Below, one piece after another: positions 18,137-33,972 of a DNA stretch of 33,972 nt. Every line of letters begins with the position of its first letter. Within the stretch, counting starts at the first letter, position 1. Source of the stretch: Planctomycetes bacterium GWF2_42_9 (GTDB taxonomy: Bacteria; Planctomycetota; Phycisphaerae; Sedimentisphaerales; UBA12454); assembly GCA_001825675.1 (NCBI GenBank), contig MHYA01000070.1:1-33972 (forward strand). Direction: 5' to 3'. The notes under the pieces were generated by a model. It saw nothing but the letters and a program-made list of their open reading frames with translations, was not told the origin of the DNA and did not search any database. Position numbers and translations under genes: made by a program.

Positions 18137-18144
18137 AATATGAA

Positions 18145-18160
18145 TCCGCCTAATGGCGGA
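18145..18160 (+). terminator. GC-rich hairpin just after the transposase stop
   Basis: TCCGCC-TAAT-GGCGGA is a perfect 6-bp stem nine bases after the stop. There is no T-run, so it may be only a processing or pausing structure. Confidence 0.4.
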
Positions 18161-18190
18161 ACTGAATTTATTAAGTTTACCGCATATGAG

Positions 18191-18299: not shown

Positions 18300-18360
18300 A
18301 TAGACAAAATAATTGAAATGAGTTATAATGGCAAGCGTGAATTAAAATCGTTAAGACCGT

Positions 18361-18384
18361 TTACACAGTTTATTTCACACCCTC
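18361..18384 (+). repeat. Putative right terminal inverted repeat of the IS256-family element
   Basis: The sequence TTTACACAG...CACACCCTC resembles the right ends of IS256-family elements, which typically carry TTTACACA and end near CTC. No convincing matching left repeat exists between the integrase and the transposase start. The best gapless match at 16870-16895 agrees at only 11 of 26 positions. Confidence 0.5.
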
Positions 18385-18385
18385 T

Positions 18386-19128: not shown

Positions 19129-22100
19129 TTATTTTCGTATACTAATTCCAAGGATTCCAATGATTATTTCATTAGCAATTGCCTCAATAGATAGTTTGGA
19201 CACTTCTTTTTGATGATTAAGAAGAATTCTTTGAACTATCCCATGATTATAATCGCTGAAATATACCGTTTCATTCTCCTGCTGCAAAGCGGGAACAAGC
19301 CAATCATCAAAATTTTTGGGATGAATAAGATTTACGACCTGCTTTGATTTGTCATTGTAAGTAACAGTTAAACGCGCGTTTTCGACCCAGCATTGCATCG
19401 CATTAGTAACACCGATGAAGAACAAAGCCAGCTCTTTACCATTCACTTTTAATGGAATATCAATAACTGTTGGAAAATTATCCCACATAGAAGCACATAC
19501 AATGTTATTTCCGTTTTCAGGTGTTGAAAATTTGATATCGCTTTTTGTTTTAAACATTCCTTTAGATTTTCTTAAAACAGTGTCATCAATTATTACAGCG
19601 TTATGCCCTGCGTGGTTCCATTCCCATGCATATCTGCCATTTAATCTAACACCAATCGAATAACCTTCTGGCCTCGGACTCTTATATTCCAAAGTGTGGA
19701 GTTCTATTAATGATGAATTAAAATATTTGGAAATATTAATGGGTTCAAACTGGTTTGTGATATTTTTTCCAAATGAAATAATATCTTTGACGGTTTCTTT
19801 TTCTTCTATTTTAAAATCAGCCGGCATCCACGCATGGAAATCATCCGCTTTCACACGCAGAAAAATAGTATGATTGCCTGCATCTGCCTTTACTTGCGCT
19901 TTTAGCTTACTTCCTAAAATAGAAATATTCTCGAATGCGTCGGTTGGATCCTTATACTCTATTATTTCCCCATCAGATATTTCTGCATAAATTTCATTAC
20001 CTTTTAAAGTTTTCTGAGAATATTTAATAGAAGGAATCATCTCGTTACCATAAATTACTTTCAAATAATTGAATCCTGCCGAATGAACCTCAACTATTAG
20101 ATAACAGCAATTTACGCCCGCTTCAATTCTATATTCTGCTATTCTATTGTTTATTAAAACAGTTTCAATCTTTGCGGAGCGAAGCGAAAGTTTAATTACC
20201 TTGCGGCAGTTTTTATCACAATACAGAGACAGGTTTTCCTGACTGCCGTTACGGTAATAGCTATAAGCAATATCTTTCAATTTAATATTAGCATCTGTCC
20301 AGTCAGCCGGCAGGCCGGGCGAGATCTCAATAAAATCATCCATAAGATGGAATCTGATACCATAAAGCCCTTCGACGATTAAACGAATGTACATGCTCGA
20401 TACATCTGTAAAATCCAGATCGCCCAAATCACCAAAACCGTGACCAGATACAACATGCGCAATTAAACCAGGATTTTTCCCTAGGAAGTAACCATCAACA
20501 ATAGCATTTAATATGTCATGAGCTTTTTCTTTTAAACCCGTTTTAAAATACGCTAAAGCAAGATGCATATTTTCAGCAGGAAATAACCCGCATGTCGAAT
20601 ACTTCTTGGGATACCAGTTAGATGAATATTCCAAACGTCCTTCCCTGTTAATGGTTTGTTCGTTGCAAAGCTCTGTCTCGGTGAATCTGAACATTTGATA
20701 TGCCTGAAACATATCAACTATGCCGGTATCGACCGCAAGATAAATCGATGAAAGTTCAGGTGAAGGATGTACAAGCTTATTGCCTATGGTATCAATATAT
20801 TCGGCAATCAAACCTTTTGAAGTCATCCAGAGTTTATCATTAACCGCTTTGGAAATTTTCTTCATCCGTTTTTCGAAAACTTTATTCGGAAGTTTCAACT
20901 TTTTCGCAATTTTCGCCATCATATTGTTTGCAAAATAGTTGTATGCACTTGCCTGTGCGCACCCGCCGCCATTATATGAATGACCATCTGAAATCCATGT
21001 ATTAAGGAAATTCTGATAAAGCCCGTCCTTATCAGGATCAAGGATCCTTTCTTCCCAATCGAGAATTCCTTTTAAATCTTCAAATATTTGTTTTGCGAAT
21101 TTTAGATCTGCCGTCCGTTCCAAATAACGCAGGCTCATATCAACCGCAACTTCCTGCATATTATAGATATCATTCTTTCCAAGGATAGCAGGTACAAAGC
21201 CTGTACTATTTTTAATCTGATGATATTGGGTACCCTCATGATCGAGATCAGGCCGGTCTTTGCCGTCATACCAAGCACTCTCTTTGCCTGGTGCATCTTT
21301 TTTAATATCAGCAAAATGCGATTTTATTGCTGTTTCTACCCGGTCATGCCAGCCGATTACTGTCGGCCCATACCAATTTCTCCAGCCAAGAAAAGGAGCA
21401 TGATAACCATAAGCGCCATGATAAAAAGTTTTATCATGCCATGAAGCATCCAGAGCCAATACTGTTGATGGTATCGTTTGGTTAAGCATTGCGTCAGGAG
21501 TTTGTACAGTAATGGCGGATTTTTTCAAATTGATTTGCTGTTTAATGAACCCCATCGGGTCTTTACAGTTTAACCATTTATCCAAAACTTTTTCATCCTG
21601 ATTCCTGATTACGACAATAAAGCCGTCAAGAGAACTGCCTGCCCCGATCTCAGAAAACATTTTGACTACAGGGTAATCTTCATTCGAAACTTTACTGCCA
21701 AGGAACATCCCCGGGCAATCATTCTGCATGGATTGGGCTGAAGCAACTTCCACATTGACAGGGAAACTGGCTCCTATCCACATATTCCCTCTGGTTCCCT
21801 TGACTAGTGCCCTGTTTTTCCCGCAACTTACAACATTATCTTTACAATCAGAAACACTGAAATTCCGCGTTTTAATGCGTGAATTCTCAAACCTGCCGAT
21901 AAAATCCGTAACTGCACCAAAACCCGATGCAAAGAAAATTCTTTGATTGGTATTTATTTTATAGTGAACTAAAAAACCATCTTCCGGCATCAATGGAAAG
22001 GCTGAAATACTTACATTTACATCTGGAAGATATGGTGAGAACTGTTTTAATTCGTATTCCATCCATCCATTTCGAAATACAGAAACCACATCTTCCGAAT

Positions 22101-22392
22101 CATGAAACCAGCATGAAAGGTCGTCTATGTCGTTCGACCAGAAAGATGCGCTCTTGGAACCGGGAGTTAAAGCTATTCCGCTCATCAAAACGCCATTTTT
22201 TGCGAAATGGCATGCTGTATGTTTTGACCAGTCTGTTACTGCACCCATAAATAATGGCAAATCGCCTGCAAACGTAAAATACCGTTCAGGTAAATTATCA
22301 TTAGCATGTGAACCATATAATGTCCTATTGAAAGTTTCCCGGCTTCCAACGATTTCATATCCATTATCAACAGGCTGGTAACGAGTTCTCAT
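19129..22392 (-). CDS. DUF4450-type large glycosidase-like protein
   Basis: This 1087-residue protein resembles DUF4450 proteins of Bacteroidetes and Planctomycetota polysaccharide loci. The N-terminal part (about 1-290) looks like a beta-sandwich. A helical (alpha/alpha)6-barrel-like region (about 310-720) contains WRNWYGPTVIGWHDRV, GGGCAQASAYNYFA and a long AENMHLALAYFKTG helix, ending with SPGLPADW. The rest (about 730-1087) is beta-rich, probably accessory or carbohydrate-binding. Such an architecture belongs to inverting six-hairpin glycosidases; the bond cleaved is unknown and I cannot name the catalytic acids. There is no signal peptide (MRTRYQPVDNG start), unlike many secreted relatives, suggesting cytoplasmic action. 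AAGGA precedes ATG 22392. It is the last gene of the LacI-led block, 19 bp after the amidohydrolase. Confidence 0.75.
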   Translation of the reverse strand: MRTRYQPVDNGYEIVGSRETFNRTLYGSHANDNLPERYFTFAGDLPLFMGAVTDWSKHTACHFAKNGVLMSGIALTPGSKSASFWSNDIDDLSCWFHDSEDVVSVFRNGWMEYELKQFSPYLPDVNVSISAFPLMPEDGFLVHYKINTNQRIFFASGFGAVTDFIGRFENSRIKTRNFSVSDCKDNVVSCGKNRALVKGTRGNMWIGASFPVNVEVASAQSMQNDCPGMFLGSKVSNEDYPVVKMFSEIGAGSSLDGFIVVIRNQDEKVLDKWLNCKDPMGFIKQQINLKKSAITVQTPDAMLNQTIPSTVLALDASWHDKTFYHGAYGYHAPFLGWRNWYGPTVIGWHDRVETAIKSHFADIKKDAPGKESAWYDGKDRPDLDHEGTQYHQIKNSTGFVPAILGKNDIYNMQEVAVDMSLRYLERTADLKFAKQIFEDLKGILDWEERILDPDKDGLYQNFLNTWISDGHSYNGGGCAQASAYNYFANNMMAKIAKKLKLPNKVFEKRMKKISKAVNDKLWMTSKGLIAEYIDTIGNKLVHPSPELSSIYLAVDTGIVDMFQAYQMFRFTETELCNEQTINREGRLEYSSNWYPKKYSTCGLFPAENMHLALAYFKTGLKEKAHDILNAIVDGYFLGKNPGLIAHVVSGHGFGDLGDLDFTDVSSMYIRLIVEGLYGIRFHLMDDFIEISPGLPADWTDANIKLKDIAYSYYRNGSQENLSLYCDKNCRKVIKLSLRSAKIETVLINNRIAEYRIEAGVNCCYLIVEVHSAGFNYLKVIYGNEMIPSIKYSQKTLKGNEIYAEISDGEIIEYKDPTDAFENISILGSKLKAQVKADAGNHTIFLRVKADDFHAWMPADFKIEEKETVKDIISFGKNITNQFEPINISKYFNSSLIELHTLEYKSPRPEGYSIGVRLNGRYAWEWNHAGHNAVIIDDTVLRKSKGMFKTKSDIKFSTPENGNNIVCASMWDNFPTVIDIPLKVNGKELALFFIGVTNAMQCWVENARLTVTYNDKSKQVVNLIHPKNFDDWLVPALQQENETVYFSDYNHGIVQRILLNHQKEVSKLSIEAIANEIIIGILGISIRK

Positions 22393-22411
22393 AGAGTTGT
22401 CCTTTTAATCT

Positions 22412-23308
22412 TTATAGCCCTAAAAGTTTTATGGCATTTTCACGAGCAATTTTATTAAATACCTGCTCGCTTATTTTCTTCTCACTTCGCCATTTCAGAA
22501 GCAATTCCATTGTCCCAAAAGGCATGTCAAAACCACATATATCGGTACCGAAAAGAAGCTTATCCTGAAATTCATTAAGAAACTTCGGCCCATATTTCGA
22601 ATCTCGACTTAGTGCCGTTGTTGCGTCGGATAACTCGCCGTATAAATTAGGATATCTTCTTAAAAGCTTGGGCATCACACCTTCTTCTTTAATCGGTCCA
22701 CTTGGAGGCCGCCATCCAACCTGTATGCCATCAGGATTAAATGCCGGTTTCCTTTGTGCTGGTGTGTCTATTCTGCTGATTTCCGCCCAGAACACCGGGC
22801 CATGTCCGATCATAATAAGTTTTGAAAACCTTTGAAGAGTATGCTCTAATTGTGGCAATCCGGGGTCGTCGTATAACCCGAAATCACCGCCGACTTGGTC
22901 TGAGCCGTCGAAAGTTACTGGAAGCCCCACATCCTGCGCATGCTTGAAGAGATTTTGAACCATCGGATTCATAACAGGCACATTCAGCATAATTTCACCG
23001 ACTCCTTTGCATCCTTTGTCTTTGTAATATCGAAGCAGGTGATCAAGAGGAGCATCAACAGAATTCGTCATAACACGTGGATCAATATTGCAGAATGGTA
23101 TAAACCTGTTGGGATATTGTGTCGCCATATCGAGTATGTCTTCATTGGCCTGAGGAAGATATATCTCTGGACTTACGATCGGCAGCAACACTCCTTTTTC
23201 AATACCTGCTTTATCATAACGTATAATTACCTGCTCTGCAGTGCAAAATTGGCCAAATGGTAATGGTACAGGTTTCCTGTAAGCATGAGCATGAATATCG
23301 ATAAACAT
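22412..23308 (-). CDS. Amidohydrolase-2 family metal-dependent hydrolase
   Basis: This TIM-barrel hydrolase of about 298 residues has the amidohydrolase-2 layout: His6-x-His8 (DIHAHAY), His169 (MIGHGPVFW) and Asp256 (FGTDICG). The family includes sugar lactonases (rhamnono- and fucono-lactonase) and decarboxylases. At the position where many members have a second-site His, the sequence reads TFDGSDQ. Given the SDR and aldolase in the neighbouring block, a lactonase role is attractive but is inference. ATG 23308 is chosen over the in-frame ATG 23326 because AAAGGG lies at good spacing before it and it leaves a 10-bp gap rather than an overlap with the preceding gene. It sits between the unclassified glycosidase gene and the DUF4450 gene. 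Confidence 0.85.
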   Translation of the reverse strand: MFIDIHAHAYRKPVPLPFGQFCTAEQVIIRYDKAGIEKGVLLPIVSPEIYLPQANEDILDMATQYPNRFIPFCNIDPRVMTNSVDAPLDHLLRYYKDKGCKGVGEIMLNVPVMNPMVQNLFKHAQDVGLPVTFDGSDQVGGDFGLYDDPGLPQLEHTLQRFSKLIMIGHGPVFWAEISRIDTPAQRKPAFNPDGIQVGWRPPSGPIKEEGVMPKLLRRYPNLYGELSDATTALSRDSKYGPKFLNEFQDKLLFGTDICGFDMPFGTMELLLKWRSEKKISEQVFNKIARENAIKLLGL

Positions 23309-23318
23309 TTTTTTCCCT

Positions 23319-25061
23319 TTAAACATATAACTTTAATAAAGATTTGATTTTTCTTTGAATACCGGCGGCATCGAACATTTGCCATTGAGGTTCCTGATGA
23401 AAACCCGCCCTTGCATCGGCTTCTACAAAAGGCAAAACTGTTTTTATATTTTCCAGCTCATTAAAAATGATATCTCTTTCTGTGGAGCTGATTTTGTCTG
23501 TTCTGTTACCCTTATGACTCAAATACCATTTATAGATATTGTGCGTACTTTGGAAAATTCCACCTATAATTTTTGCTACGCCAAATTCTTCTCGAATTCT
23601 TGCATTAGAGCTATCTGAATCAAAAGCTTCTTGATAATACATAAGTGCTTTTTTCCACGCTTTCGACAATTTCTCAAATGATTCTGCAATTTCTTCAAGT
23701 GAATATGTTATAGCGGTATCTTCCAGCCTGTCACAAAAATCATGCTTCATCCACGAACCGCCCATTGGAATACCTTTAAAGTTCAAAACAAGCGGGTAAG
23801 ACAATGCTTCGTTAACTGGTGAAAAATATAAGAAATTGTTATTACCGCCAATTGGGTAATATTTACATGCACGGTCAAAACCGTACCAGGCTTTTACTAT
23901 TGAGTTTGTATCAATTTTGCTGCCAAAATATTTTTTCGCAAGGCTGGCAAGCCATTTCTTTTCATCATAATCAAATTTACTGCCACACAATTCTTGAACC
24001 GCAAACGTGTTGAGCGTATTAGTGCAGCACGCAAAATTCCAGCAACCCATAAAACCAGATACTTTTGTTTGCCGCATAAATTTAAATTTATGGTAAAGGG
24101 ATACGATCATCGGTAAATTAGGCACTGTAGCAAGTTCGTGCGTTGTATTTACTTGAAAACGCGACCACAACTTTCTTGCATTATTTAATGCATATTGTGC
24201 TTTGGATTTAAACCGCGGAGATGGGCCATGATATATCAAACTATACTCTTCAACTATTTTCGTCTCATTACATCTTTTAATTTTGCCGCCTCTTTCAAAA
24301 TCACCCATCAAGATTACATCTTTATGCAGTAATTCTATAATCTCATTATATGGCGGTTTGAAATGCATGTTCCACGACCAATCCCATGCAACCACTTGTG
24401 CTTTTTTATTTACGGAGTGGATCGAATCATGAATTAAGTTTATTATTGAAGACAAAACTTCGGCAGTACCGAATTGACTACATCGTGGACAGTGGCATTT
24501 CTTCGCCCAAAATGTTTCAGGATTTGGATACGTCTTAGTATTACTTATAACATGTGCCCAGCAATTACTGACATGTTCACTGCTGGTTATTAAAATAGCA
24601 CCTGCAAATGGCAATTTCTTGTAGAGCTTAGAAAATCCTTCATAAAGATAATCTTTAACAGCTTGTGTTGATGAACATAAAGCTATTCGCGGTTCTTCAT
24701 CATAGATTTTGGTGGTATGGCCGGCCAAATCTTGATTATCTTTCCAAAAGGGATGCGATGCTTTCATTCCCAATGGCTCAGTCAAATAAGGCCATACCTT
24801 TAATCCGTAACGTTCTGCACGCGAGCATAATTTTTCTAATTCCTTTAAATATTTGCCTGAATTACTATTGTATTTCAGAAATAATTTTGCGGGTGCGACG
24901 TCCCTGAGAGTCAATCTTAGCCAAATACCATTAAATCCCGAATCTGCAATGGCTTCTAAATTAGCATTTGTATGCGTTTGATTAACTGAAAGAATTTCAT
25001 CTTTCAGATTATAGTTACTTTGACCGCAACGGAAAATACGATTTTCAAAAATCTTTGACAT
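23319..25061 (-). CDS. Putative TIM-barrel glycoside hydrolase, unclassified
   Basis: The 580-residue protein has no family I can name with certainty. The first half shows TIM-barrel features: ADSGFNGIWLRL (39-50), GLKVWPYLTEP (86-96), a conserved-looking ITSSEHVSNCWAH (158-170) where Glu162 is a candidate catalytic acid, and a following cysteine cluster CHCPRC (189-194). The cluster is probably a metal or structural site, as in some GH20-like and DUF4838 proteins. VVAWDWSWNMHF follows (about 221-232). The second half is helical. It has no signal peptide. It starts three bases after the creatininase-family gene stops, so it is translationally coupled, and it precedes the amidohydrolase by 10 bp. 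A hydrolase acting on an oligosaccharide or glycoside inside the cell is the best guess. Confidence 0.6.
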   Translation of the reverse strand: MSKIFENRIFRCGQSNYNLKDEILSVNQTHTNANLEAIADSGFNGIWLRLTLRDVAPAKLFLKYNSNSGKYLKELEKLCSRAERYGLKVWPYLTEPLGMKASHPFWKDNQDLAGHTTKIYDEEPRIALCSSTQAVKDYLYEGFSKLYKKLPFAGAILITSSEHVSNCWAHVISNTKTYPNPETFWAKKCHCPRCSQFGTAEVLSSIINLIHDSIHSVNKKAQVVAWDWSWNMHFKPPYNEIIELLHKDVILMGDFERGGKIKRCNETKIVEEYSLIYHGPSPRFKSKAQYALNNARKLWSRFQVNTTHELATVPNLPMIVSLYHKFKFMRQTKVSGFMGCWNFACCTNTLNTFAVQELCGSKFDYDEKKWLASLAKKYFGSKIDTNSIVKAWYGFDRACKYYPIGGNNNFLYFSPVNEALSYPLVLNFKGIPMGGSWMKHDFCDRLEDTAITYSLEEIAESFEKLSKAWKKALMYYQEAFDSDSSNARIREEFGVAKIIGGIFQSTHNIYKWYLSHKGNRTDKISSTERDIIFNELENIKTVLPFVEADARAGFHQEPQWQMFDAAGIQRKIKSLLKLYV

Positions 25062-25064
25062 ATT

Positions 25065-25808
25065 TTACTTCCCTGTCAAAATCTGTTTTATACTATTAAG
25101 AATCATTTTTTTTGCGGCATTACCATAATCAATATCTGCATCCATGGCTGATTGGGCAAACCAATGTTCCTTATTATGTCGTTTCATGTCCACACCTTCA
25201 GGACAAAACGCCATCATCAATGAGGTCTCCTGCTTGCCGGCGTGATCGATAGGAAATTGCTTTTGAGTCTGCTCATCCATAAACGGATGAATTTGTATCC
25301 AGCTAAAAGGATCAATTCCTTTCTCATGCTGCCTATAATAATCCTGCATCTTTTCGCTGCCCCACCAGCCTTCGCCGCGCTCTTTTTCCAAAAACTCAAA
25401 TATCGTCTCTTTTGCAGCTAACTTCAAAGCAAGGTCCGTAGGCATTCCGGCAGTAAAGTTTTCACTTTGATGATGTATGAATAAATGAAGATTTCTAAAA
25501 CCTACCTTTAGCAGATTAATAAAAAGCTCTTTTGCAAATAAGTAAACCGTGTGAGAATCAACACTAATTGTCCCTTTTTTTTCTGGTGAAGATACCGCAT
25601 AACTTGCAGTCCCATAAACAAACGGCGGCAAAATAATCATTTCTATTTCTTTTTCAAGAATATCCAACGCCCGGGTAACAACAAGAGTATCTACCCCAAA
25701 ACAGCAATGCTCGCTATGATATTCCATCACTCCTATTGCCATTACGGTAGGAATATTTTTATCTATCGCCTGCCTTAGCTGATCTGGAAACATCATTTCA
25801 TAACGCAT
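25065..25808 (-). CDS. Creatininase-family amidohydrolase
   Basis: The 247-residue protein has the creatininase fold signature: Glu29-x-His31 and Asp40 (VMEYHSEHCCFGVD), then HHQSEN (112-117) where creatininases carry GHxEN/NGHGGN, and DHAGKQETS (188-196). In creatininase the residues at these sites bind two metal ions. Here the third-site His appears to be replaced by Gln (HHQSEN), unless one of the flanking His residues substitutes. Family members open cyclic amides and amidines (creatinine, formamide compounds, mycofactocin precursor). The substrate here is unknown. AGGTGA precedes ATG 25808. It is embedded between the ASRT gene (17 bp) and the glycosidase gene (3 bp). Confidence 0.85.
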   Translation of the reverse strand: MRYEMMFPDQLRQAIDKNIPTVMAIGVMEYHSEHCCFGVDTLVVTRALDILEKEIEMIILPPFVYGTASYAVSSPEKKGTISVDSHTVYLFAKELFINLLKVGFRNLHLFIHHQSENFTAGMPTDLALKLAAKETIFEFLEKERGEGWWGSEKMQDYYRQHEKGIDPFSWIQIHPFMDEQTQKQFPIDHAGKQETSLMMAFCPEGVDMKRHNKEHWFAQSAMDADIDYGNAAKKMILNSIKQILTGK

Positions 25809-25825
25809 AAATCACCTGCAAAAAT

Positions 25826-26191
25826 TTATTCTAGAGCATACCCCATAGTTGTGTAATATGCTAAGTTTGGTTGCGTAATATCCATTCTTCCTATCTGCGC
25901 CACAACTGGCAATTGACTGCGAACGACTAAAGCATATTGACCAAAGGGGATTTGGTAATTATTTTCACCCACGGGCTTATCTAACCTAAAGCATCTAACT
26001 CGTTGCCCCTTAATGACAGATTTTATATTCTTCATAGGTTCATCGTTATCAAAATAAATATCAAATTCCACAATTGTATCTTGATCGTTCATATTTAGAA
26101 TAACAAGCGATTCGTGGCCAAAAGGCTCTTTATCGCCGGGCTGCGGCAAATCACCGTCAGGGAAAACCCAAACTCTTTTACCTGTATCCAT
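25826..26191 (-). CDS. ASRT-family (Anabaena sensory rhodopsin transducer-like) small protein
   Basis: The 121-residue single-domain beta-rich protein has the recognisable ASRT core: KRVWVFPDGDLP (5-16), GHESLVILN (25-33), VRCFRLD (65-71) and a strongly conserved end QPNLAYYTTMGY (107-118). The founder is the tetrameric transducer of the Anabaena sensory rhodopsin. Comparative work by Aravind's group proposed that the superfamily binds small molecules, probably sugars, and is common in carbohydrate operons. No rhodopsin gene is present here, so a sugar- or metabolite-binding role inside this catabolic block is more likely than photosensing. AGGAGC precedes ATG 26191. It lies 12 bp after the M24 gene. 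Confidence 0.85.
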   Translation of the reverse strand: MDTGKRVWVFPDGDLPQPGDKEPFGHESLVILNMNDQDTIVEFDIYFDNDEPMKNIKSVIKGQRVRCFRLDKPVGENNYQIPFGQYALVVRSQLPVVAQIGRMDITQPNLAYYTTMGYALE

Positions 26192-26203
26192 TTTCTGCTC
26201 CTA

Positions 26204-27367
26204 TTAAATTTCAATTATACCGCTAATTTTGTCTGAAAGAAGTTCGATACCATTTTCCTTTATCACACAACCTGTTTCCCATCTCAAACCAAATTCTTTA
26301 TCACGAACAAATGTATCAATCTGGAATGTCATATTTTCCTGAAGTTTATATTCCGATGTTGTCTCAATCCAGGGCTTTTCAACTTCAAGCATTCCAAGTC
26401 CATGACATGGGCCATAAAGATAATTAGCAGCATATCCCTTTTCTTTGAAATATGCCTCAAATTTCTTAGCCACTTCGCCGGCAACAATTCCCGCTTTCAA
26501 CCATTCTCTTGTTTTAAAATGAGCGTCTAGGCCAAACTGGACAAGTTCTTTCTGTCTTGCATTCATTTTGCCAATACAAAACGGTATTCCAATTGAAGGA
26601 GAATAGCCGCTATATCGTGCTCCTAAATTAAGCTGAATTATCTTACCCTTTTCAATAATGTTGTATCGCGGCCTGGAAATTGCATTATTAGTATTTGCAC
26701 CCCCGAAAAGATAAAGAGCATGAGCTTCGTATTCTCCGCCATTTGCATAAATAGCCTCTTGTGCAATGCCTACAACCTGAAGCTCAGTCATACCGGGTTT
26801 AATTCTCGATAAAACCGCATCAACCGCAAGTTCCGAAATACGAAACGCTTCTTTAAGGCACGCAATTTCAGCTTCAGATTTGATTTGCCTAAGCTCGGTT
26901 ACAATGTTGTCAGCCTTAATAATTTCGGCATTTGGAAATGCCTTTTGAATTGATTGATATAGATCGACACTTGTTACAAGCCAGCCTGCAATGCCAATCT
27001 TTTTGGGATTTTTAACCCCGATGGATTCGAAAACATCCGAAAAAGCATTGAAGCTACCTCCTGGAAACTGTGGGTCTGCTGATTCACGGTATTCACGCAT
27101 TCTGTGTATATTATTTACGGGTGACCAACTGTGCGCGAATTCTTCTGACTCAGGGCCTACCATCAATGCAGCTTTACCATTTGCTGCAATTGCAACTCCA
27201 CCAACTTCAAATAACGGCCAAAAACCACTGAAATAGCGTACATTGGCAAAATCAGCCTCATTGGAATTTGCGATTAACGCATCAAGGCCGGCTTTAGTTA
27301 TTAAGTTTGAAGCTTTTTCAATTCTTCTTAAATACTCGTCTGCTGAAATGCATGCTTTACTTTTCAT
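26204..27367 (-). CDS. M24 (creatinase/aminopeptidase P fold) protein lacking most metal ligands
   Basis: The 387-residue protein has the creatinase N-terminal domain (about 10-160, with NVRYFSGFWP) and the pita-bread domain (about 165-387). Of the five metal ligands of aminopeptidase P, the two aspartates are replaced by Asn247 (QLNLGA) and Ser258 (GYSPSIG). His322 (GPCHGLG) and Glu364 (LRWETG) are kept, and the fourth position is Asp351 instead of Glu. That pattern points to a metal-independent creatinase-like C-N hydrolase rather than a peptidase. A creatininase-family gene two positions downstream strengthens the parallel with the creatinine-creatine pathway, but the substrates need not be those. 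AAGGAA precedes ATG 27367. It follows lacI by 11 bp. Confidence 0.8.
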   Translation of the reverse strand: MKSKACISADEYLRRIEKASNLITKAGLDALIANSNEADFANVRYFSGFWPLFEVGGVAIAANGKAALMVGPESEEFAHSWSPVNNIHRMREYRESADPQFPGGSFNAFSDVFESIGVKNPKKIGIAGWLVTSVDLYQSIQKAFPNAEIIKADNIVTELRQIKSEAEIACLKEAFRISELAVDAVLSRIKPGMTELQVVGIAQEAIYANGGEYEAHALYLFGGANTNNAISRPRYNIIEKGKIIQLNLGARYSGYSPSIGIPFCIGKMNARQKELVQFGLDAHFKTREWLKAGIVAGEVAKKFEAYFKEKGYAANYLYGPCHGLGMLEVEKPWIETTSEYKLQENMTFQIDTFVRDKEFGLRWETGCVIKENGIELLSDKISGIIEI

Positions 27368-27378
27368 TTTTTTGTTCC

Positions 27379-28392
27379 TTATATCGTGGATTTTCTAATA
27401 ATTAATTTGGCAGGTATTACTTTCTTAATTTGCGAAATTTCTTTATTACCTCTGATCATATCGACTAAAGTTTGAACACCTTCTGAACCGAGTCTTGCTT
27501 TATCTATATCAATAGTGCTCAACGATGCAGCAATGTATTGTCCATAGATGATATTATCAAAACCAATTACTTTTACCTGTTTGGGAATTTTTAGTTCCAA
27601 TTTTGATAAAGCATTAACTGCACCTATGGCCATCGTATCATTTGAAAAAATACCATCGTAAGACTTACCATTATTCCATTGTTTTAAAATTGTTTCTCTA
27701 CCGCCTTGGGTCGTATAATCGGATTCAATGACATCAATTATTTTGAATTTATCATTAAAGTTCTTTGCAGCTTCCCTCATGGATTGTGAGAAATAGTGTG
27801 TTTTAGGACCTGTGATTACGAGGACACGTCCACATTTCTGCTCCACTAAATGATTCAATGCCAATTTACATCCGCCTAAATTATCGGATTCAACACAGGC
27901 AATACCTGCATCACCAACAACAGGGCTATCTATTATCACTATATTTTTCGCATGTTTTTTTATCTTTTCTATATCATTTTTACAGAACTGCCCTGCCAGA
28001 ATTGCACCGCACATACCATTAATTGATAAAATAGTTTGAAGCCTTGGGAAAGATTTATCAAAATTCTCCTGCCAATGAACATGTAAAGGACAAAGACCAA
28101 AATTTGCGGCCTCTTTCTCTGCACCTCGTGCAACATCACAAAAAAATTCATCTGCATTTTGAGTATCTGCTCCGAAAATTAAAGCAAAACAACTACTCGC
28201 AACTGAGCGAAGAGCATCTTTACTTCTCATGGAACGCGCTGCAGCGGAAGGAACATATCCAAGAGCAGCGATAGTTTTTAGAACATGTTTACGAGTTTTT
28301 TCACTAACAGACCCATTGCCTGTCAGAACTCTGGATACAGTCATACTGCTAACTCTTGCCTTAGAAGCCACTTGTGAAATAGACACTGACAT
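27379..28392 (-). CDS. LacI-family transcriptional regulator
   Basis: This is a 337-residue LacI/GalR repressor. The N-terminal helix-turn-helix and hinge occupy about residues 4-58 (ISQVASKARVSSMTVSRVL, then GYVPSAAARSMRS). A periplasmic-binding-protein-like effector domain follows, with IFSNDTMAIGAVNAL (about 250-264) and VIGFDN near the end. It heads the block that runs to the DUF4450 gene with gaps of 3-19 bp. A palindromic operator lies 19 bp upstream, over the promoter, so it very likely represses itself and the genes behind it until a sugar-type effector binds. AGGTG precedes ATG 28392. The effector is unknown. Confidence 0.95.
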   Translation of the reverse strand: MSVSISQVASKARVSSMTVSRVLTGNGSVSEKTRKHVLKTIAALGYVPSAAARSMRSKDALRSVASSCFALIFGADTQNADEFFCDVARGAEKEAANFGLCPLHVHWQENFDKSFPRLQTILSINGMCGAILAGQFCKNDIEKIKKHAKNIVIIDSPVVGDAGIACVESDNLGGCKLALNHLVEQKCGRVLVITGPKTHYFSQSMREAAKNFNDKFKIIDVIESDYTTQGGRETILKQWNNGKSYDGIFSNDTMAIGAVNALSKLELKIPKQVKVIGFDNIIYGQYIAASLSTIDIDKARLGSEGVQTLVDMIRGNKEISQIKKVIPAKLIIRKSTI

Positions 28393-28410
28393 TTTTACAC
28401 CTGAATAATG

Positions 28411-28426
28411 TTATCGTTAACGTTAA
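28411..28426. promoter_or_regulatory. LacI-type operator
   Basis: TTATCGTTAACGTTAA contains a perfect CG-centred palindrome TTAACGTTAA (28417-28426) and an overlapping near-palindrome TTATCGTTAA. CG-centred palindromes are the hallmark of LacI-family operators. It overlaps the expected start point of the lacI promoter. Confidence 0.8.
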
Positions 28427-28452
28427 TATACAACAATCCAAAAAAAAATCAA
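28425..28452 (-). promoter_or_regulatory. Putative promoter of the lacI-led block
   Basis: On the minus strand TTGATT (28452-28447) and TATATT (28430-28425) are separated by 16 bp. Transcription would start near 28418, inside the operator, which is ideal for repression by steric block. Confidence 0.6.
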
Positions 28453-28694
28453 ATAAATATCTACGTATTTACATGATTTGTGTAGGCAGGGAAAAAAATC
28501 TTATGTGCTGGCAGTGAGGCTAGCTGCAAGTTGAATGAGACATTGACCCATTCGCATAGTTCTACTACCAGCCGAACATTATTTTACTTCTTATAAACTC
28601 AATATACTTATCTTCATTAAGCATAATTACAAACTGATTAAAACTACTAGCTAACGTCAGGCTTCTCCATAAAGAGCTACAATATACTATGTTT
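28453..28694. other. Intergenic gap between the two catabolic blocks
   Basis: These bases separate the nitrilase-family gene from the lacI promoter region. I see no gene. A weak hairpin (GCTGGC/GCTAGC, about 28505-28522) is the only structure noticed, and there is no clear T-rich terminator on the minus strand. Read-through from the upstream block into the lacI block therefore cannot be excluded. Confidence 0.5.
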
Positions 28695-29612
28695 CTAACA
28701 GATACGGCTTTCTCTTAGGTACTTCTGTAACGGCAGAATATGTATTTCCTGTTCCAATTGGTCTATGTCTATATCCTCTGAAACTACGGTAATCATCATT
28801 CTGCCATCATGTTCCATGAGCTTAACATCAATTTTTCCACCATACCTGGCAAAAAGTTCTTTTAGTATTAGCTGATTGCCATCAAGGTGGTAAATTCGAC
28901 TTTCCAGATTTAGGGTGCATGCAATCCAGCGAGGGTGAAATCCGAATTCCACTGTAGAAGTACGCGTCCCCGCTTGAATAAGAATATTTCCATCTCTATC
29001 ATAAATAATCGATTCCCATGGAAATGCACAAATCAATGGAACTCCGCTGCTAAAAGCCCAAAACTCCATCAATTTCCCTCCATAAGTATAGGAAGGAAAT
29101 ACCATCAGATCAATGCCTGCAGAAATATAATTCCACAGTAAGTCCTGATAGTTACAATCAAAACAGATCGCAGTGCCTATTCGCATTCCATCCAAAACAA
29201 TCGGCTGCTGCAATGCTTCTCCCGGCCGTATGCCTAAATTTCTTTCTGCACTTGTAGGAACAGCTTTACGATATTTCCCAGCCACACTGCCGCTTCTATT
29301 TACATAAATCGTGCTGTTATATAAACGACCATTGTCATTTTCAATGATTGATACGCAAATATTAGTTGAAAAATCTTTTGAGATTCCAGATGCCATCTGA
29401 ACTGTAGGGCCGCTTATGGATTCGGAGGCACAGAAGTTGTGTTTGTCGAAATCAGGAACGATAGTTGTCTCAGGCAATACCAGCAAATCCGGACTTTGCT
29501 CTTTTAATAGTTCTATAACATGGATTCGGAGTAATTCGCGGCGTTTGTCGATAGTGTGGTTTAAATCCGGTTCAAAACAACTGGCAGCTACTCTATATCT
29601 TTTGAACTTCAT
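28695..29612 (-). CDS. Carbon-nitrogen hydrolase (nitrilase superfamily)
   Basis: The 305-residue protein carries the nitrilase Glu-Lys-Cys triad: Glu48 (LPETT), Lys116 (KYRKAVP) and Cys150 (TAICFD). The superfamily hydrolyses nitriles, amides, N-carbamoyl groups and omega-amides through a cysteine acyl-enzyme. Sequence alone does not decide the branch; an amidase or carbamoylase is more common than a true nitrilase. The C-terminal 60 residues extend beyond the catalytic fold. AGAGG precedes ATG 29612, which lies inside the last 20 bp of the upstream cysteine-rich gene, so translation is coupled. It is the last gene of the upstream block. Confidence 0.9.
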   Translation of the reverse strand: MKFKRYRVAASCFEPDLNHTIDKRRELLRIHVIELLKEQSPDLLVLPETTIVPDFDKHNFCASESISGPTVQMASGISKDFSTNICVSIIENDNGRLYNSTIYVNRSGSVAGKYRKAVPTSAERNLGIRPGEALQQPIVLDGMRIGTAICFDCNYQDLLWNYISAGIDLMVFPSYTYGGKLMEFWAFSSGVPLICAFPWESIIYDRDGNILIQAGTRTSTVEFGFHPRWIACTLNLESRIYHLDGNQLILKELFARYGGKIDVKLMEHDGRMMITVVSEDIDIDQLEQEIHILPLQKYLRESRIC

Positions 29613-30051
29613 AATCCTCTTTCATTTTTTTTATTCTAAGTTTGCATTTTGCGTCTTTGCAATTACTCAGGTCTATTTCATAATTAAATCCTAAAGGTTC
29701 AAGGACTCGTCTGTAAAGAGTATCGCAATGTTCACAATAATACTCATAAGGCTTAATATGTTTTTCTTCCAATAATCTCCCCATGCTAGGACAGTAACGC
29801 ATGTCAATTTCAAAAAGCCCGGTATCTTCGTCAAGGCTCATTTTGAAATCGGCTGCTTCTTCGGTAAGGCTGCGGCTCCAATATTCAAAACATCCTGCCA
29901 GACCTTTCTTCTCTGCTAACTCTCTTAGATTACCTAAAAAATTATCCGAAAGGATTTCCCAAAATCTGAATACCGCTTCCTTGCCGCCCTTTTCATCGAG
30001 AAACTTGAAAAGTTCGCTATATGCAGGTATAAATTCTGTACAGGATATCAT
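29593..30051 (-). CDS. Cysteine-rich small protein B (paralogue of neighbour; ATC-hydrolase-like?)
   Basis: The 152-residue protein is helical in its first 65 residues. It then has a cysteine pattern: Cys87-Pro88 (MRYCPSM), Cys106 and Cys109 (YYCEHC), and Cys131 and Cys136 (NCKDAKC). The layout, with CP, then YC about 19 residues on, then a GF/GY strand and a last Cys about 15 residues later, is shared with the adjacent 165-residue protein, so the two are diverged paralogues. It vaguely recalls the L-2-amino-thiazoline-4-carboxylate hydrolase family (cyclic C-N opening), but I cannot confirm this. A metal- or redox-binding protein is equally possible. AAAGG precedes ATG 30051. It overlaps the nitrilase start by 20 bp. 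Confidence 0.6.
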   Translation of the reverse strand: MISCTEFIPAYSELFKFLDEKGGKEAVFRFWEILSDNFLGNLRELAEKKGLAGCFEYWSRSLTEEAADFKMSLDEDTGLFEIDMRYCPSMGRLLEEKHIKPYEYYCEHCDTLYRRVLEPLGFNYEIDLSNCKDAKCKLRIKKMKEDYEVQKI

Positions 30052-30054
30052 AAA

Positions 30055-30552
30055 TTAAACCTTTCTACATCTTGTAGCTTGTTCAAAGTTTTCTATCCAG
30101 ACTTTTTGAACACATTTACCTTCACCAGATTTATATTCACACGTGAATTGATAGCCCGCGTCATTGCATATTGTCTTATTGACGATAACAGTCGTTTGAC
30201 AATATCTGTCTGTAAAAAACGAACCCGTTTTTTTGAGATGTGCTATCGCTGGGCATTGTTTTACTTCACAAATTAATTTATCATTTTCACAATAAATATT
30301 AAATTCACCTTGTTCTTTTTTAAATATATTTTTCCAATGGCTTCGCAGTGCCTCAAGACCTTCTCTTTTTAACTTCTCCGACAATGGCTTAAAATATGTT
30401 TTGCCAACCTGAATTAAATATTCTTCAGTCGCTTTTTCGCCAAAATTATCATCCAGATATTTAATGGCATAACATAACGCACCATGAAAATCTTTGTGCA
30501 GATATTCATTATCAGACTGTTTACAATCGATAACTTTTATTTTATCAGGCAT
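30055..30552 (-). CDS. Cysteine-rich small protein A (paralogue of neighbour; ATC-hydrolase-like?)
   Basis: The 165-residue protein has an N-terminal helical part (about 20-80: HGALCYAIKYLDDNFG, then a Lys/Glu-rich helix). Its cysteine pattern is Cys95, Cys100-Pro101 (VKQCPA), Cys118 (DRYCQT), Cys129, Cys138 and Cys147 (GKCVQK). It aligns by eye with the neighbouring protein B around CP, YC and the last Cys. The genes are 3 bp apart, which suggests equal expression and possibly a heteromer. It lies 6 bp after the aldolase gene. There is no signal peptide or membrane segment. The link to the L-2-amino-thiazoline-4-carboxylate hydrolase family is a tentative recollection; otherwise the function is unknown. 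Confidence 0.6.
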   Translation of the reverse strand: MPDKIKVIDCKQSDNEYLHKDFHGALCYAIKYLDDNFGEKATEEYLIQVGKTYFKPLSEKLKREGLEALRSHWKNIFKKEQGEFNIYCENDKLICEVKQCPAIAHLKKTGSFFTDRYCQTTVIVNKTICNDAGYQFTCEYKSGEGKCVQKVWIENFEQATRCRKV

Positions 30553-30558
30553 ACTTCG

Positions 30559-31422
30559 TTATCTTTCTCTCTTCATAAATGGGAATATAACATTATTATC
30601 CATTATACCTTTTTCCTTGAGTTTGCTCTTGATAGCATACATCCAATCGGTCAAAAGGTCATTACCAAGCATATCATCCATATCTTTGCGGAACCGCTGC
30701 TGAAGCTTGAAAGATTTTAGCTGGTCTTTTTCAACTGTTGCCGCATTATACAATTCCACAAGAGTATCTACAAACGCTGTTCCGCCGCCTGTGATTACGC
30801 CATCTGCACCCATCAACAGACTGATGTCATACACATTTTCATCGCCCTGTAATATCTGACATGGCCTTTTGTTGACATCTGGATATCTTCGCAAAAGTTC
30901 GGTAAACAGATATATATCTCCACTGGAATCCTTAATGGCTTTAATTTGCGGAACCTGCATAATCTTGAGGATTGTATCAAGATTTGCTTTGTTGCCGGTT
31001 GCGCCTGGACAGTGATAAAAAACCATCTGGCAATCAAGTTCGCTGCTAATCTTTTCTACCGAATTCAACAAGCTATCCGGATGAGGAAACCTATAATAAA
31101 ACGGCGTCGTCATTACCATATAGTCGGGGTTAAGTTCTTTGAACTTTTTGCCTAACTCAATCATTCTTCTGGTGGAAACTTCTGCTATACCAGCAAGAAC
31201 TGGAACTCTTTTCTTTGCGTGTTCTACCGCGGTCTTAACCACTACAAGCTTTTGGCTGTCAAGCAGTGCAGGACCTTCACCCATATTACCTAATACGAAT
31301 ATTCCGTTTGCACCCTGTGTTATGACATAATCAATGAGCTTTATTAATGACTGAATATCAACATCTTCATTTTCAAGCAAAGGTGTTGGCAATGCTGTTA
31401 TAATTCCGCTTAACTTTGACAT
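30559..31422 (-). CDS. Dihydrodipicolinate synthase / N-acetylneuraminate lyase family aldolase
   Basis: This class I aldolase of about 287 residues is a TIM barrel. The Schiff-base lysine is Lys164 (IKAIKDSSGD), the catalytic tyrosine is Tyr136 (FYHCPG), and GNMGEG (45-50) is the pyruvate-carboxylate loop, usually GTTGE. The family includes DapA, NanA and 2-keto-3-deoxy sugar acid aldolases. The sialidase-like and SDR neighbours argue for sugar-acid or nonulosonate cleavage to pyruvate plus an aldehyde, not for lysine synthesis. A frame opens at TTG 31440, but ATG 31422 is chosen because GAAAGG lies upstream and homologues start with a KLSGIITALPTP-like strand. It lies 26 bp after the SDR and 6 bp before the cysteine-rich pair. 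Confidence 0.9.
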   Translation of the reverse strand: MSKLSGIITALPTPLLENEDVDIQSLIKLIDYVITQGANGIFVLGNMGEGPALLDSQKLVVVKTAVEHAKKRVPVLAGIAEVSTRRMIELGKKFKELNPDYMVMTTPFYYRFPHPDSLLNSVEKISSELDCQMVFYHCPGATGNKANLDTILKIMQVPQIKAIKDSSGDIYLFTELLRRYPDVNKRPCQILQGDENVYDISLLMGADGVITGGGTAFVDTLVELYNAATVEKDQLKSFKLQQRFRKDMDDMLGNDLLTDWMYAIKSKLKEKGIMDNNVIFPFMKRER

Positions 31423-31448
31423 TTCTCTAAAACCTTTCAAGTTTTTTA

Positions 31449-32222
31449 TTATGCGTGAAGACCGCCGTCCATTAGAATATTTTCGCCTGTGATATATGAT
31501 GATGCCTCGGATGCCAGAAATACCACTACACCTTTTATATCGTCGTTGTTAGCTAATCTGCCCAGTGGAACTTTTTTATTATACTTTTCCACAAATTTTT
31601 CATTCTGGCCTGCATATAAACCGCCCGGACTTATGCAGTTTACCCTGATTTTTTTAGGACCGAGCTTTCTTGCCAAATACTTGGTTAATGCTATCATGCC
31701 GCCCTTATGGAAATGATAATCCGGAGGTGAGTCCATTTCTGTGCCTTCATATAACGAAAAATCGGGACCAAACATGCCCTGCATGGAGCCTATATTAACG
31801 ATAGAACCTCCGCCTCTTTTTTCAATCAAATCAGACATTTCACGAACGATATCAAACATGCCCGTTGCATTTATATCCATAGATGTTCGCCAGCATTCGA
31901 GAGGGTCAATATATCTCTTCATAGGTCTGGCAACTGCATTGTTTATAAATATATCAAGGCCGCCAAAGACACTCTCAATTTCATCTTTGAGCTTTGTTAT
32001 TGATCCATGTTTAGCCTGGTCAACATATCTTGCATGAGCATCAAGCCCTCTTGCCTTAAATTCGTCAACAATCTTTTGGGCGTTATCAAGGCTAGTTGAA
32101 GCTGTTATTACAGTACCACCGCATTCCAGAAGTGCCTCAAATATGCACCTTCCGTACAAACCCGCCCCACCAGTGATCAGGATTACCTTATTTTTTAATG
32201 AAAACATTTCAACAGTATGCAT
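31449..32222 (-). CDS. SDR family NAD(P)-dependent oxidoreductase
   Basis: The 257-residue classical short-chain dehydrogenase has the cofactor motif GGAGLYG (18-24), NNA (94-96), catalytic Ser146 (IGSMQG) and Tyr169-x-x-x-Lys173 (YHFHK), plus a typical C-terminal ILMDGGLHA. It has an unusually long segment between Ser and Tyr (about 23 residues instead of about 13), which may shape the substrate pocket. It probably oxidises a sugar, sugar acid or polyol hydroxyl in this block. ATG 32222 is used; ATG 32207 is also possible. It lies 77 bp after the sialidase-like gene, the largest gap in the upstream block, so a secondary promoter there is possible. Confidence 0.92.
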   Translation of the reverse strand: MHTVEMFSLKNKVILITGGAGLYGRCIFEALLECGGTVITASTSLDNAQKIVDEFKARGLDAHARYVDQAKHGSITKLKDEIESVFGGLDIFINNAVARPMKRYIDPLECWRTSMDINATGMFDIVREMSDLIEKRGGGSIVNIGSMQGMFGPDFSLYEGTEMDSPPDYHFHKGGMIALTKYLARKLGPKKIRVNCISPGGLYAGQNEKFVEKYNKKVPLGRLANNDDIKGVVVFLASEASSYITGENILMDGGLHA

Positions 32223-32299
32223 ATAATAGTTTTTCCTATATATTTGCAGAGATTGATAGTTTAGCTTCCAAATATTACCCTTAAAACATTTTTACAACT

Positions 32300-33412
32300 T
32301 TATTCTATCTTTAATTTGAACCAACGGATATTTGAAACACAATCTTCATAGCACCAGAAAGATACAAAAATAATTCCATCTTTCATATATGTTATGCAAG
32401 GTGCGCCAAAACGTAGCACATTGAAATTATGTGACATGTTTTCTGTTGAATCTGTTAGCCCCGAAGATTGATGCCCCCAAAGAGGCAGCTCAGCTTCATT
32501 GATCCATTTACTTCCTTTCAGCTGACTTACATTCGCCCATAATCCAGGCTTATCTATTCGGCGATATATACATAAGACCCTGCCATCATTCAGTATTAAC
32601 GGTGTAAGAGTCTGCCCCATCAATCCTGTTGATGCAGGTTGTGACCATGTTCTGCCTCCATCTGCGCTCAACGAATATTGATTAGGCATATCGCATTTAG
32701 TTATATCGTCATAGGCCCATGCAGTTGCGATCAGCCGGCCATCCGGCAATTCAGAGATTTTTGATTCCCAAAAAAATGTCTTTCCTTTAGGTTCATTCAT
32801 TACATCAATATATTGAGACCAGGTTTGTCCCTGATCGTTTGAAATTATTGCTATCATTCGGATGCCATTGGGGCAATCGCCATCCCATCCCGGCCAGGTC
32901 TGTGTTGGAATTATCCACCGACCATCACTGAGAATTGTAACTGGGCAGCACATTTCAAATGCAGGACCAATCAAAGGAGGATTTATTCTTTGGGGTGTTG
33001 TCCATTGTTTCCCTTTGTTTTTTGACCTCAAAAGCAAAAGTTCAGTAGGTACAAAACCAAGAGTTTTTTCATTTGTCAAACCTTCATTTAAGTGGGCAGT
33101 GCGATCATGGCGAATCATGAAAATCACAAGACTATCGTCCCGCAGTGCTGTCAATCTTGCACAATTTGAATGCGAATTAGATGAATCTATAAAAATTGAT
33201 CCTTCATTGCGCCAAGTTTCCCCATTGTCATTTGAGCGAAAAAGATATGTATTAAGGTCAGCTGATTCAAACGCCTGACCAAGAACAACAGTTGCTACCA
33301 TTGAACCATCGGAAAGAACTGCAACTGAAGGAAAATACGCATGAATGCTTTGTACATGAGGTCTGGGATTACGATAAAGCACTCCTGTTTTATAATTTTT
33401 AATCGGGTTCAT
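32300..33412 (-). CDS. Sialidase-like BNR/Asp-box beta-propeller protein
   Basis: The protein of about 370 residues has four Asp-box repeats (S-x-D-x-G-x-x-W type) at about 60-67 (SNDNGETW), 130-137 (SKNKGKQW, degenerate), 191-198 (SNDQGQTW) and 249-256 (SADGGRTW), the pattern of six-bladed sialidase propellers. A Glu in FFWESKISELPDG (about 214-226) fits the family's conserved acid. True sialidases also need an arginine triad, which I cannot confirm, and Asp-box proteins without sialidase activity are common. There is no signal peptide. ATG 33412 has GGTGA at good spacing and is preferred. GTG 33427, overlapping the previous stop by one base, is the alternative. It is coupled to the partial propeller gene upstream. 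Confidence 0.85.
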   Translation of the reverse strand: MNPIKNYKTGVLYRNPRPHVQSIHAYFPSVAVLSDGSMVATVVLGQAFESADLNTYLFRSNDNGETWRNEGSIFIDSSNSHSNCARLTALRDDSLVIFMIRHDRTAHLNEGLTNEKTLGFVPTELLLLRSKNKGKQWTTPQRINPPLIGPAFEMCCPVTILSDGRWIIPTQTWPGWDGDCPNGIRMIAIISNDQGQTWSQYIDVMNEPKGKTFFWESKISELPDGRLIATAWAYDDITKCDMPNQYSLSADGGRTWSQPASTGLMGQTLTPLILNDGRVLCIYRRIDKPGLWANVSQLKGSKWINEAELPLWGHQSSGLTDSTENMSHNFNVLRFGAPCITYMKDGIIFVSFWCYEDCVSNIRWFKLKIE

Positions 33413-33426
33413 TGTTTTCACCGTCA

Positions 33427-33972
33427 CTATTCTGATATTTGGATCAAATTGCCAGCTATATAAAAAGGGTCAGCTTCGGAGCCAAATCGTTCTAATAATT
33501 TTTTATTGTATAAATGAAAAACTACATAAACCTGGTTTTCGGAAACAGGTAAAAAACATGGATACCCTGCCATCCCCTCGGCAGGCCGCCACGCTTTTTT
33601 AAGATCATCCTCAGACCACTTTACATTGCTGTAAAGTTTTTCAAATTCCCCAGTAGGATCTTTGAGATGACATATTAATTTCCAGCTGTCTCCATTATCC
33701 TTGCTTGCGGCAATAGCTATACCTGGAGCATTGCCTGCATCACGAAAAGCAAAAAGTAATAGACCGTTAGGCATACAATATAATGCAGGTGATCCGCCTG
33801 CAAGTTCCAGTTGTATTGGCATTGTCCATGTTTTACCATTGTTCGATGATTTTATTTGCCAGAATTTTTTTTCAGGTTTTTTATCCGTTCGCGCAATCGC
33901 AACAAGAGACTTGTCCTTACAGACAACAACTGCTGTTTCATTAAAAATTAAGCATTCTTTCTCGCCATTGGG
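33427..33972 (-). CDS. Second sialidase-like BNR protein (partial, N-terminus beyond window)
   Basis: The frame is open from the right edge to the TAG at 33427, 181 codons, so only the C-terminal part is seen. It contains Asp boxes SSNNGKTW (about 33829-33852) and SKDNGDSW, and sialidase-like segments GSPALYCMPNGLLLFAFRD. It is a homologue of the neighbouring gene but clearly diverged. Whether it has a signal peptide cannot be judged. Its stop touches the start region of the next gene, so the two propellers are co-translated. It is the first visible gene of the catabolic cluster; the promoter lies outside the window. Confidence 0.85.
   Translation of the reverse strand, partial: PNGEKECLIFNETAVVVCKDKSLVAIARTDKKPEKKFWQIKSSNNGKTWTMPIQLELAGGSPALYCMPNGLLLFAFRDAGNAPGIAIAASKDNGDSWKLICHLKDPTGEFEKLYSNVKWSEDDLKKAWRPAEGMAGYPCFLPVSENQVYVVFHLYNKKLLERFGSEADPFYIAGNLIQISE

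Follow-up and report, generated by a model that had tools for sequence, protein, structure and literature searches.

The window analyzed here is a stretch of 33,972 nucleotides from Planctomycetes bacterium GWF2_42_9 (G000:C70:1-33972, where G000 is the organism's own genome and C70 the contig), whose minus strand carries, between positions 19129 and 33972, a cluster of 14 genes in two tight blocks. With a probability of about 0.55, we read this cluster as one of several paralogous carbohydrate-utilization loci that encodes an uncharacterized oxidative and aldol-type pathway of sugar catabolism. The two operon-like blocks are repeated in the genome, co-occur in some relatives and have neighbors of carbohydrate type. 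The families present point to glycan release, uptake and regulation, and the chemistry of these families suggests oxidation, ring opening and aldol cleavage. As a carbohydrate-utilization locus, the cluster is of a kind already known, and no paper on its core gene set was found among the open-licence papers covered. A preliminary description of this DNA had proposed an undescribed carbohydrate-type system, and this proposal stands, as the genes recur together in the own genome and in some relatives of the order.

Block B runs from two propeller proteins (BNR2, then BNR1) through an SDR oxidoreductase, an aldolase and the cysteine-rich proteins cys165 and cys152 to a nitrilase, and block A from a LacI regulator through M24, ASRT, the creatininase-family protein CRN, p580 and an amidohydrolase-2 protein (AH2) to a protein of 1087 amino acids (Table 1). 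Gaps inside each block measure -20 to 77 bp, and the nitrilase-LacI gap between the blocks is 302 bp; these lengths and the family models confirm the two one-strand blocks and the families first named for them.

The blocks are more than a chance medley, because their gene order is repeated elsewhere in the own genome. There are four further copies of the aldolase (78-83% identity), three of CRN (84-89%), SDR homologues at six other block-B places (65-75%), and seven further cys152 places, one of them a remnant on C69. The set M24-ASRT-CRN-p580 occurs in the window and three more times, with block B within 10 kb in three of the four sets. On C38, all seven genes from LacI to the 1087-residue protein follow the window order at 72-85% identity, the 72% identical copy of the latter ending block A, and the contig ends just upstream of LacI. 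On C155, block B is followed on the same strand by M24, ASRT, CRN and p580, and on C3, M24-ASRT-CRN-p580-DUF4838 occupy one strand and SDR-cys152-cys165-aldolase the other, the p580 and SDR genes being about 8 kb apart.

In other genomes, cys152 was found in 4 of 392 members of the phylum with one sequence as the query and in 4 of 382 with a profile, the own genome being counted each time. Among 40 relatives, an automatic selection that includes the own genome, cys152 profile matches were obtained in seven (the one in G404 spans just 45 residues at the end of a contig), and the CRN subfamily (E < 1e-100) in four, G000, G398, G411 and G414, all of which belong to the cys152 seven. The hypergeometric probability of this overlap is 3.8e-4. 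This value ignores kinship (G411 and G414 are congeneric) and comes from small counts. G398 carries M24-ASRT-CRN-p580 at 79-88% identity, and its two blocks sit on different contigs (L123, L153); in G414, a single contig carries CRN and cys152 with about 11 kb between them. The preliminary description had made its proposal depend on co-occurrence in other genomes, which is seen inside the order. A pattern-based scan of genome contigs, which finds close relatives, yielded 58 CRN loci labeled as coming from many phyla; block-B genes were near CRN in none of them (tblastn at 1e-6, with flanks of up to 10 kb, many shorter), whereas M24 was adjacent (same strand, <600 bp) in 30, p580 in 12 and ASRT in 3. 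The M24-CRN core is therefore widespread, and block B is its partner only in this order so far. Adjacent CRN-M24 loci carry the labels Omnitrophota (L011), Ratteibacteria (L010), Bacteroidales (L020), Desulfosarcina (L035), Planctomycetota (L047) and Chthoniobacter (L058).

The genomic surroundings are mostly those of sugar genes. Neighbor genes were clustered from frames of at least 90 amino acids in L009-L074 and the window, and one representative per cluster was scanned; the families recurring beside CRN are FGGY kinase, a MalK-type ABC ATPase with its permease, BtpA, Zn-ADH, Gfo/Idh, MFS and DUF6786. Paralogous block-B loci contain GH38, GH78-type, GH52-type and GH31-type genes (the last under cut-off), SSF symporters and an aldo/keto reductase. 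The ASRT protein of the window matches PF07100 at 95.4 bits against a cut-off of 25. Proteins of this family were predicted to bind sugars on the basis of similar contexts, and a stand-alone ASRT gene in a sugar-type operon resembles that description; the consulted part of the same paper (De Souza 2009, PMC2739507) is silent on an M24-ASRT-creatininase arrangement.

The pathway may be pictured as follows. Outer-surface and intracellular glycosidases (the putative lipoprotein BNR2, BNR1, p580 and the 1087-residue protein) would release a sugar, which an SSF symporter would import and which LacI and the ASRT protein would sense. SDR and Gfo/Idh enzymes would oxidize it, CRN and AH2 would open the oxidized ring, either a lactone or, by the example of IolN, a cyclic diketone, and the DHDPS-type aldolase would split the resulting 2-keto acid. 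The cys165/cys152 pair would be a close partner of the aldolase, acting on the same substrate or product, and the altered M24 protein beside CRN could perform a metal-free cleavage or play a regulatory role.

CRN matches PF02633 at 86.5 bits (gathering cut-off 31.3; 2.4e-24). Over 26 aligned sequences, from 25 of the 58 loci and the window, mean column identity is 70%, and residues E29, H31, D40, H113 and E116 are invariant. Four of the five metal ligands of creatininase, with the identities we assume for them, align with E29, H31, D40 and H113; the fifth falls opposite S115, and the invariant E116 is one place on. By its sequence, CRN is a strongly conserved subfamily of its own. It has the family match in common with the PF02633 enzymes (creatininase, IolN, MftE and riboflavin formamidase), and its residues aligned with four creatininase ligands are invariant, but it scores below the creatininase (TIGR04448 equivalog, 69.5 vs. 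235 bits), IolN (NF041098, 43.5 vs. 245) and MftE cut-offs.

The M24 protein matches Creatinase_N and M24 over nearly its whole length. It had been described as creatinase-like, yet its closest solved chains are aminopeptidase P/prolidase (2zsg, 1.1e-29), and creatinase (7yto, 1chm) follows only at about 5e-5. The ligand positions mapped on 2zsg read N247, S258, H322, D351 and E364. Among 30 aligned proteins (the window's included), taken from 35 clustered frames and at least 360 residues long, the N, H, D and E are invariant, whereas the S position reads S in 26 and G in four. We take the canonical ligands at these positions to be D, D, H, E and E; three of the five are then replaced in all 30 proteins, and the M24 protein is therefore not a canonical metallopeptidase. 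It shares its domains with prolidase, aminopeptidase P and creatinase, but differs from them at these three positions.

In block B, the aldolase matches PF00701 at 137.5 bits (cut-off 22.1), below the DapA cut-off. It keeps the Schiff-base lysine, within IKDSSGD, and the tyrosine, and the lysine is aligned in 12 of 12 aldolases. A GEGP motif is present in all nine aligned aldolases that are adjacent to a cysteine pair (C70, C45, C3, C138, C155, C135, C146, G414 and G386) and is absent from the aldolase of G126, which lies further from its pair, and from two ALD2 proteins. A DHDPS-family gene adjoins all eight cysteine-pair places of the own genome, C69 being a remnant. The aldolases on C135, C146 and C69 are only 23-26% identical to that of the window; the pair is thus tied to the aldolase type and not merely to one duplicated block. 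The family of cysteine proteins also has other partners, since in G386 (L093, G386:C95) one distant cys152-like gene has no adjacent aldolase, and the protein that comes next resembles, on inspection by eye, an AP endonuclease of the sugar-isomerase type. The G145 stretch (L129) and the short G411 contig (L126) likewise showed no aldolase.

The cysteine-rich pair of the preliminary description is present and can now be defined more closely, as cys165 and cys152 are homologous to one another, though diverged (hhalign 97%, E 1.6e-11). In hhalign, a profile of cys165 aligned with PF14196 (ATC_hydrolase) members of the phylum at 76.6% and E 2.1e-5 over 125 columns that include the conserved cysteines, compared with 1.4% (E 0.038) for a CRN profile and 0.3% (E 0.19) for a p580 profile used as controls. 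A cys152 profile gave no link to the same members (0.2%; control 1.3%, E 0.042). Individually, two of the 14 pair members reach PF14196 (best E 0.0037), and a match to DUF6144 (E 0.0018) was obtained for one. No protein of the own genome exceeds the PF14196 cut-off of 28.1 bits, the sole match up to E 10 being cys152 of C155 (14.9 bits, E 0.115), and the pair's profile gave only weak partial matches to solved structures (best E 0.0076). A remote relationship of the pair to ATC hydrolase is likely but unproven; cys165 shares the conserved cysteines, but differs from that family in forming a tandem pair beside an aldolase. AlphaFold modeled cys152 alone with a predicted local distance difference test score (pLDDT) of 47.9. 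An in-frame TAG in cys152 homologues was considered as a recoding signal and ruled out, because this stop ends cys152 just before SDR. Two loci, L126 (G411) and L127 (G414), contain a tandem array of three members, one cys165-like and two cys152-like genes. On C69 (L008), remnants of cys165 and cys152 (49- and 39-residue matches) lie beside the aldolase as a decayed copy.

The preliminary description had listed two large glycosidase-like proteins. For p580 this holds at the level of a model. It has no Pfam match, and AlphaFold predicted a TIM barrel of glycoside-hydrolase type (mean pLDDT 86, predicted template modeling score 0.87). The top ranks in Foldseek are GH20, GH89, GH84 and GH115 enzymes and Cwp19; those in VIA-align are Cwp19, GH20C and GH67, and GH84, GH5, GH138 and beta-amylase trail them by no more than about two Z units (Z 18-20, root-mean-square deviation 3.2-10.3, 7-13% identity). 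Residues S161 and E162, invariant in an alignment of 12 frames of 540-640 amino acids and the window, directly follow a strand of the predicted barrel. In its predicted fold, p580 is thus a glycosidase-type barrel. The 1087-residue protein is DUF4450-like and scores just under the cut-off (26.6 vs. 27 bits). As for the two Asp-box propellers described earlier, BNR1 has its BNR boxes (PF13088) and no signal peptide visible by eye. BNR2 is incomplete because the window stops at a run of N on C70; its in-window part alone falls below the BNR_2 cut-off (27.2 vs. 31.4 bits), and the portion beyond the run of N starts with a lipobox-like signal.

Several observations weigh against the reading as a sugar-catabolic locus. 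Since block-B genes were not found near CRN in the 58 loci, A and B do not necessarily act in a common pathway in all organisms. Neither cys152 nor CRN was found in any of the six genus mates, and in G411 and G414 CRN is 56-57% identical with no M24 or ASRT found in the stretches examined. Of the four M24 genes in the own genome, the one on C155 (L071:5059-6218) is broken into two frames covering residues 1-291 and 284-387 of the window protein; this copy is among the five frames left out of the M24 alignment. The assembly (4.86 Mb, 214 contigs, 92% complete) is scored 7% contaminated, so that some of the copies may be foreign; the guanine-cytosine (GC) content of the paralogous contigs, 0.38-0.45, neither shows nor excludes this. 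For AH2 and the 1087-residue protein, no solved relative was found by sequence, and a lactonase or IolN-like action of CRN is drawn by analogy only.

Among other explanations, we consider unlikely a nitrogen-decorated sugar as the substrate, with CRN, M24, the nitrilase, aminotransferases and the ATC-like cysteine pair as the enzymes that take off the nitrogen. The preliminary description had argued for such a sugar from three or more C-N-cleaving families, an argument that has lost three of its supports: the nitrilase is not conserved, the metal site of M24 is altered and CRN is under the creatininase cut-off. The nitrilase matches PF00795 (71.9 bits, cut-off 23.2), and LPET, YRK and ICFD, read by eye, correspond to the E-K-C triad of the superfamily, but it occurs in 0 of 22 related stretches (20 places, as some overlap on two contigs) and has, among the 58 CRN loci, one relative only, at 27% identity and 8 kb off. 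Two supports have been gained, the link of cys165 to ATC_hydrolase and class-III aminotransferases near block B on C45, C3 and C135. On C135 (L072:9739-12045), a single frame of 768 amino acids, adjoining the aldolase and the cysteine pair, joins Amidohydro_2 to a class-III aminotransferase, which suggests that both enzyme types serve one pathway. These aminotransferases are found at only three of the eight cysteine-pair places, however, and the cys152 profile lacks the ATC link. Similarly, hexosaminidases are among the fold neighbors of p580, but glucuronidases, endoglucanases and beta-amylase match it about as well. The sugar may still bear nitrogen, because the cysteine pair is remotely ATC-hydrolase-related and aminotransferases stand beside three copies.

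It is rather improbable that the route is instead one for a cyclitol or keto-sugar, whose dehydrogenases would produce a cyclic diketone and whose CRN, an analogue of IolN, would hydrolyze a C-C bond. The NCBIfam name of the IolN model is 3-dehydro-scyllo-inosose hydrolase, and we take IolN to be the enzyme of Thermotoga maritima, whose inositol pathway likewise combines a creatininase-family hydrolase with dehydrogenases. The consulted part of one source names diketo-inositol and 5-keto-L-gluconate as compounds of that pathway (PMC5931981). All 26 CRN proteins match the IolN model (best 3.3e-16), yet all 26 also match the creatininase and MftE models, and the window CRN scores lower against IolN than against creatininase. 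Two Zn-ADH genes directly precede M24-CRN in L016, L021, L023 and L063, and Gfo/Idh genes recur, whereas no Zn-ADH is found among the 14 genes of the locus. CRN is not IolN by score, and no inositol gene set was seen among the proteins scanned.

The genes could also serve the biosynthesis of an unusual sugar or a cell-surface glycan, which we hold to be improbable. Class-III aminotransferases and DHDPS-type aldolases do occur in sugar synthesis, and SDR matches the PtmA model of flagellin modification, though at 120.1 bits it stays far below the cut-off of 350. However, glycosidase-family proteins, SSF symporters and LacI regulators share these loci, and the 30 neighbor proteins scanned include no glycosyltransferase or nucleotidyltransferase.

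Sialic (nonulosonic) acid is not favored as a substrate and is very improbable; the preliminary description had speculatively named an acylated or amidino-bearing nonulosonic acid as an example. Asp-box propellers do stand together with a NanA/DapA-family aldolase, with an SSF symporter further on, and the SSF family includes sialic-acid symporters; the propellers would then be sialidases and the aldolase NanA. The aldolase nevertheless falls far below both NanA cut-offs (TIGR00683, 109 vs. 382 bits; NF003164, 126.5 vs. 281), and the solved chain closest to BNR1 is the uncharacterized Dfer_1899 (5hx0), sialidases reaching E about 0.004 at best. BNR1 also reads FPS, by eye on the alignment, where the RIP motif, which we take as the arginine signature of GH33 sialidases, would sit. 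Finally, degradation of creatinine or creatine by CRN and M24, two frequently adjacent members of families that hold creatinine enzymes, is hardly credible given the sugar-gene neighbors, the sub-cut-off score of CRN and the aminopeptidase P/prolidase affinity of M24.

Table 1. Genes of the cluster, listed from block B to block A; all positions refer to the window.
Gene	Description	Position	Strand
BNR2	C-terminal part of BNR propeller; window ends at run of N	33427..33972	-
BNR1	Asp-box propeller, 375 amino acids	32300..33427	-
SDR	SDR oxidoreductase, 257 amino acids	31449..32222	-
Aldolase	DHDPS/NanA-superfamily class I aldolase	30559..31440	-
cys165	Cysteine-rich protein	30055..30552	-
cys152	Cysteine-rich partner protein	29593..30051	-
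Nitrilase	Nitrilase-superfamily (CN_hydrolase) protein	28695..29612	-
LacI	LacI-family regulator, first gene of block A	27379..28392	-
M24	Pita-bread protein, metal site altered	26204..27367	-
ASRT	ASRT-family small protein, predicted sugar-binding sensor	25826..26191	-
CRN	Creatininase-family (PF02633) protein	25065..25808	-
p580	Predicted glycoside-hydrolase-like TIM barrel and helical C-terminal part	23319..25061	-
AH2	Amidohydrolase-2 (PF04909), HxH motif by eye	22412..23326	-
1087-residue protein	DUF4450-like protein	19129..22392	-

The locus extends past the window on C70, where the same strand carries genes for a second DHDPS protein, Gfo/Idh, a third BNR protein, N_methyl, PEP-CTERM and LacI; beyond this second LacI gene, SSF and DUF6259 genes lie on the opposite strand. 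GC content drops from 0.427 at positions 1-15400 to about 0.385 within the cluster. Immediately to the left of the latter, at 15418-18777, a tRNA-Ser, a tyrosine integrase and a frame-broken IS256-type transposase mark an integrated element of 3.3 kb, which is flanked (15450-18777) by a 66-bp repeat of the 3' half of the tRNA-Ser (94%). The idea that the cluster is part of a genomic island was rejected, as it lies outside this element and no third exact copy of the repeat (14-20 bases) was found on the 47-kb contig. In the stretches compared, synteny with the sister genome G392 (MurA 94% identical) ends at window position 6443, well before the cluster. At 5160-6444, enolase is seemingly split into frames of 204 and 207 amino acids (the first was scanned), and the syntenic gene in G392 is a single frame of 428. 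The plus strand at 6556-8592 encodes a DUF2961 protein of 678 amino acids; DUF2961 is common in carbohydrate loci.

Read as a locus of oxidative and aldol-type sugar catabolism, the cluster is of the general kind represented by the polysaccharide or carbohydrate utilization loci of PVC and Bacteroidota bacteria, which likewise combine, in neighboring operons, a LacI regulator, SSF/MFS uptake, dehydrogenases, an aldolase and glycosidase-like enzymes. What sets it apart is a core with CRN, an M24 protein of altered metal site, ASRT and the cysteine pair, for which we know of no sugar reaction in such a context. We propose, tentatively and with the odds against it, that CRN with the metal-less M24 protein and the ATC-like cysteine pair with the GEGP aldolase are two new enzyme pairs of a sugar catabolism not described before, of which the CRN-M24 pair is widespread across phyla, and that the metal-free M24 and the cysteine pair perform ring-opening or nitrogen-removing steps new to sugar metabolism.

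According to the consulted part of one report, a protein first annotated as a creatinine amidohydrolase proved to be a formamidase of the riboflavin pathway (PMC9478397). Together with IolN in a sugar pathway, this case indicates that the creatininase family name does not fix the bond that is cleaved. The labels "creatininase" and "Xaa-Pro peptidase" would likely mislead here, because no NCBIfam model passes its cut-off for the window CRN. If the CRN-M24 pair acts on sugars, many genomes would be misannotated and a new catabolic reaction would be awaiting assay. The cysteine pair, for its part, is a small target whose partner, the aldolase, is evident.

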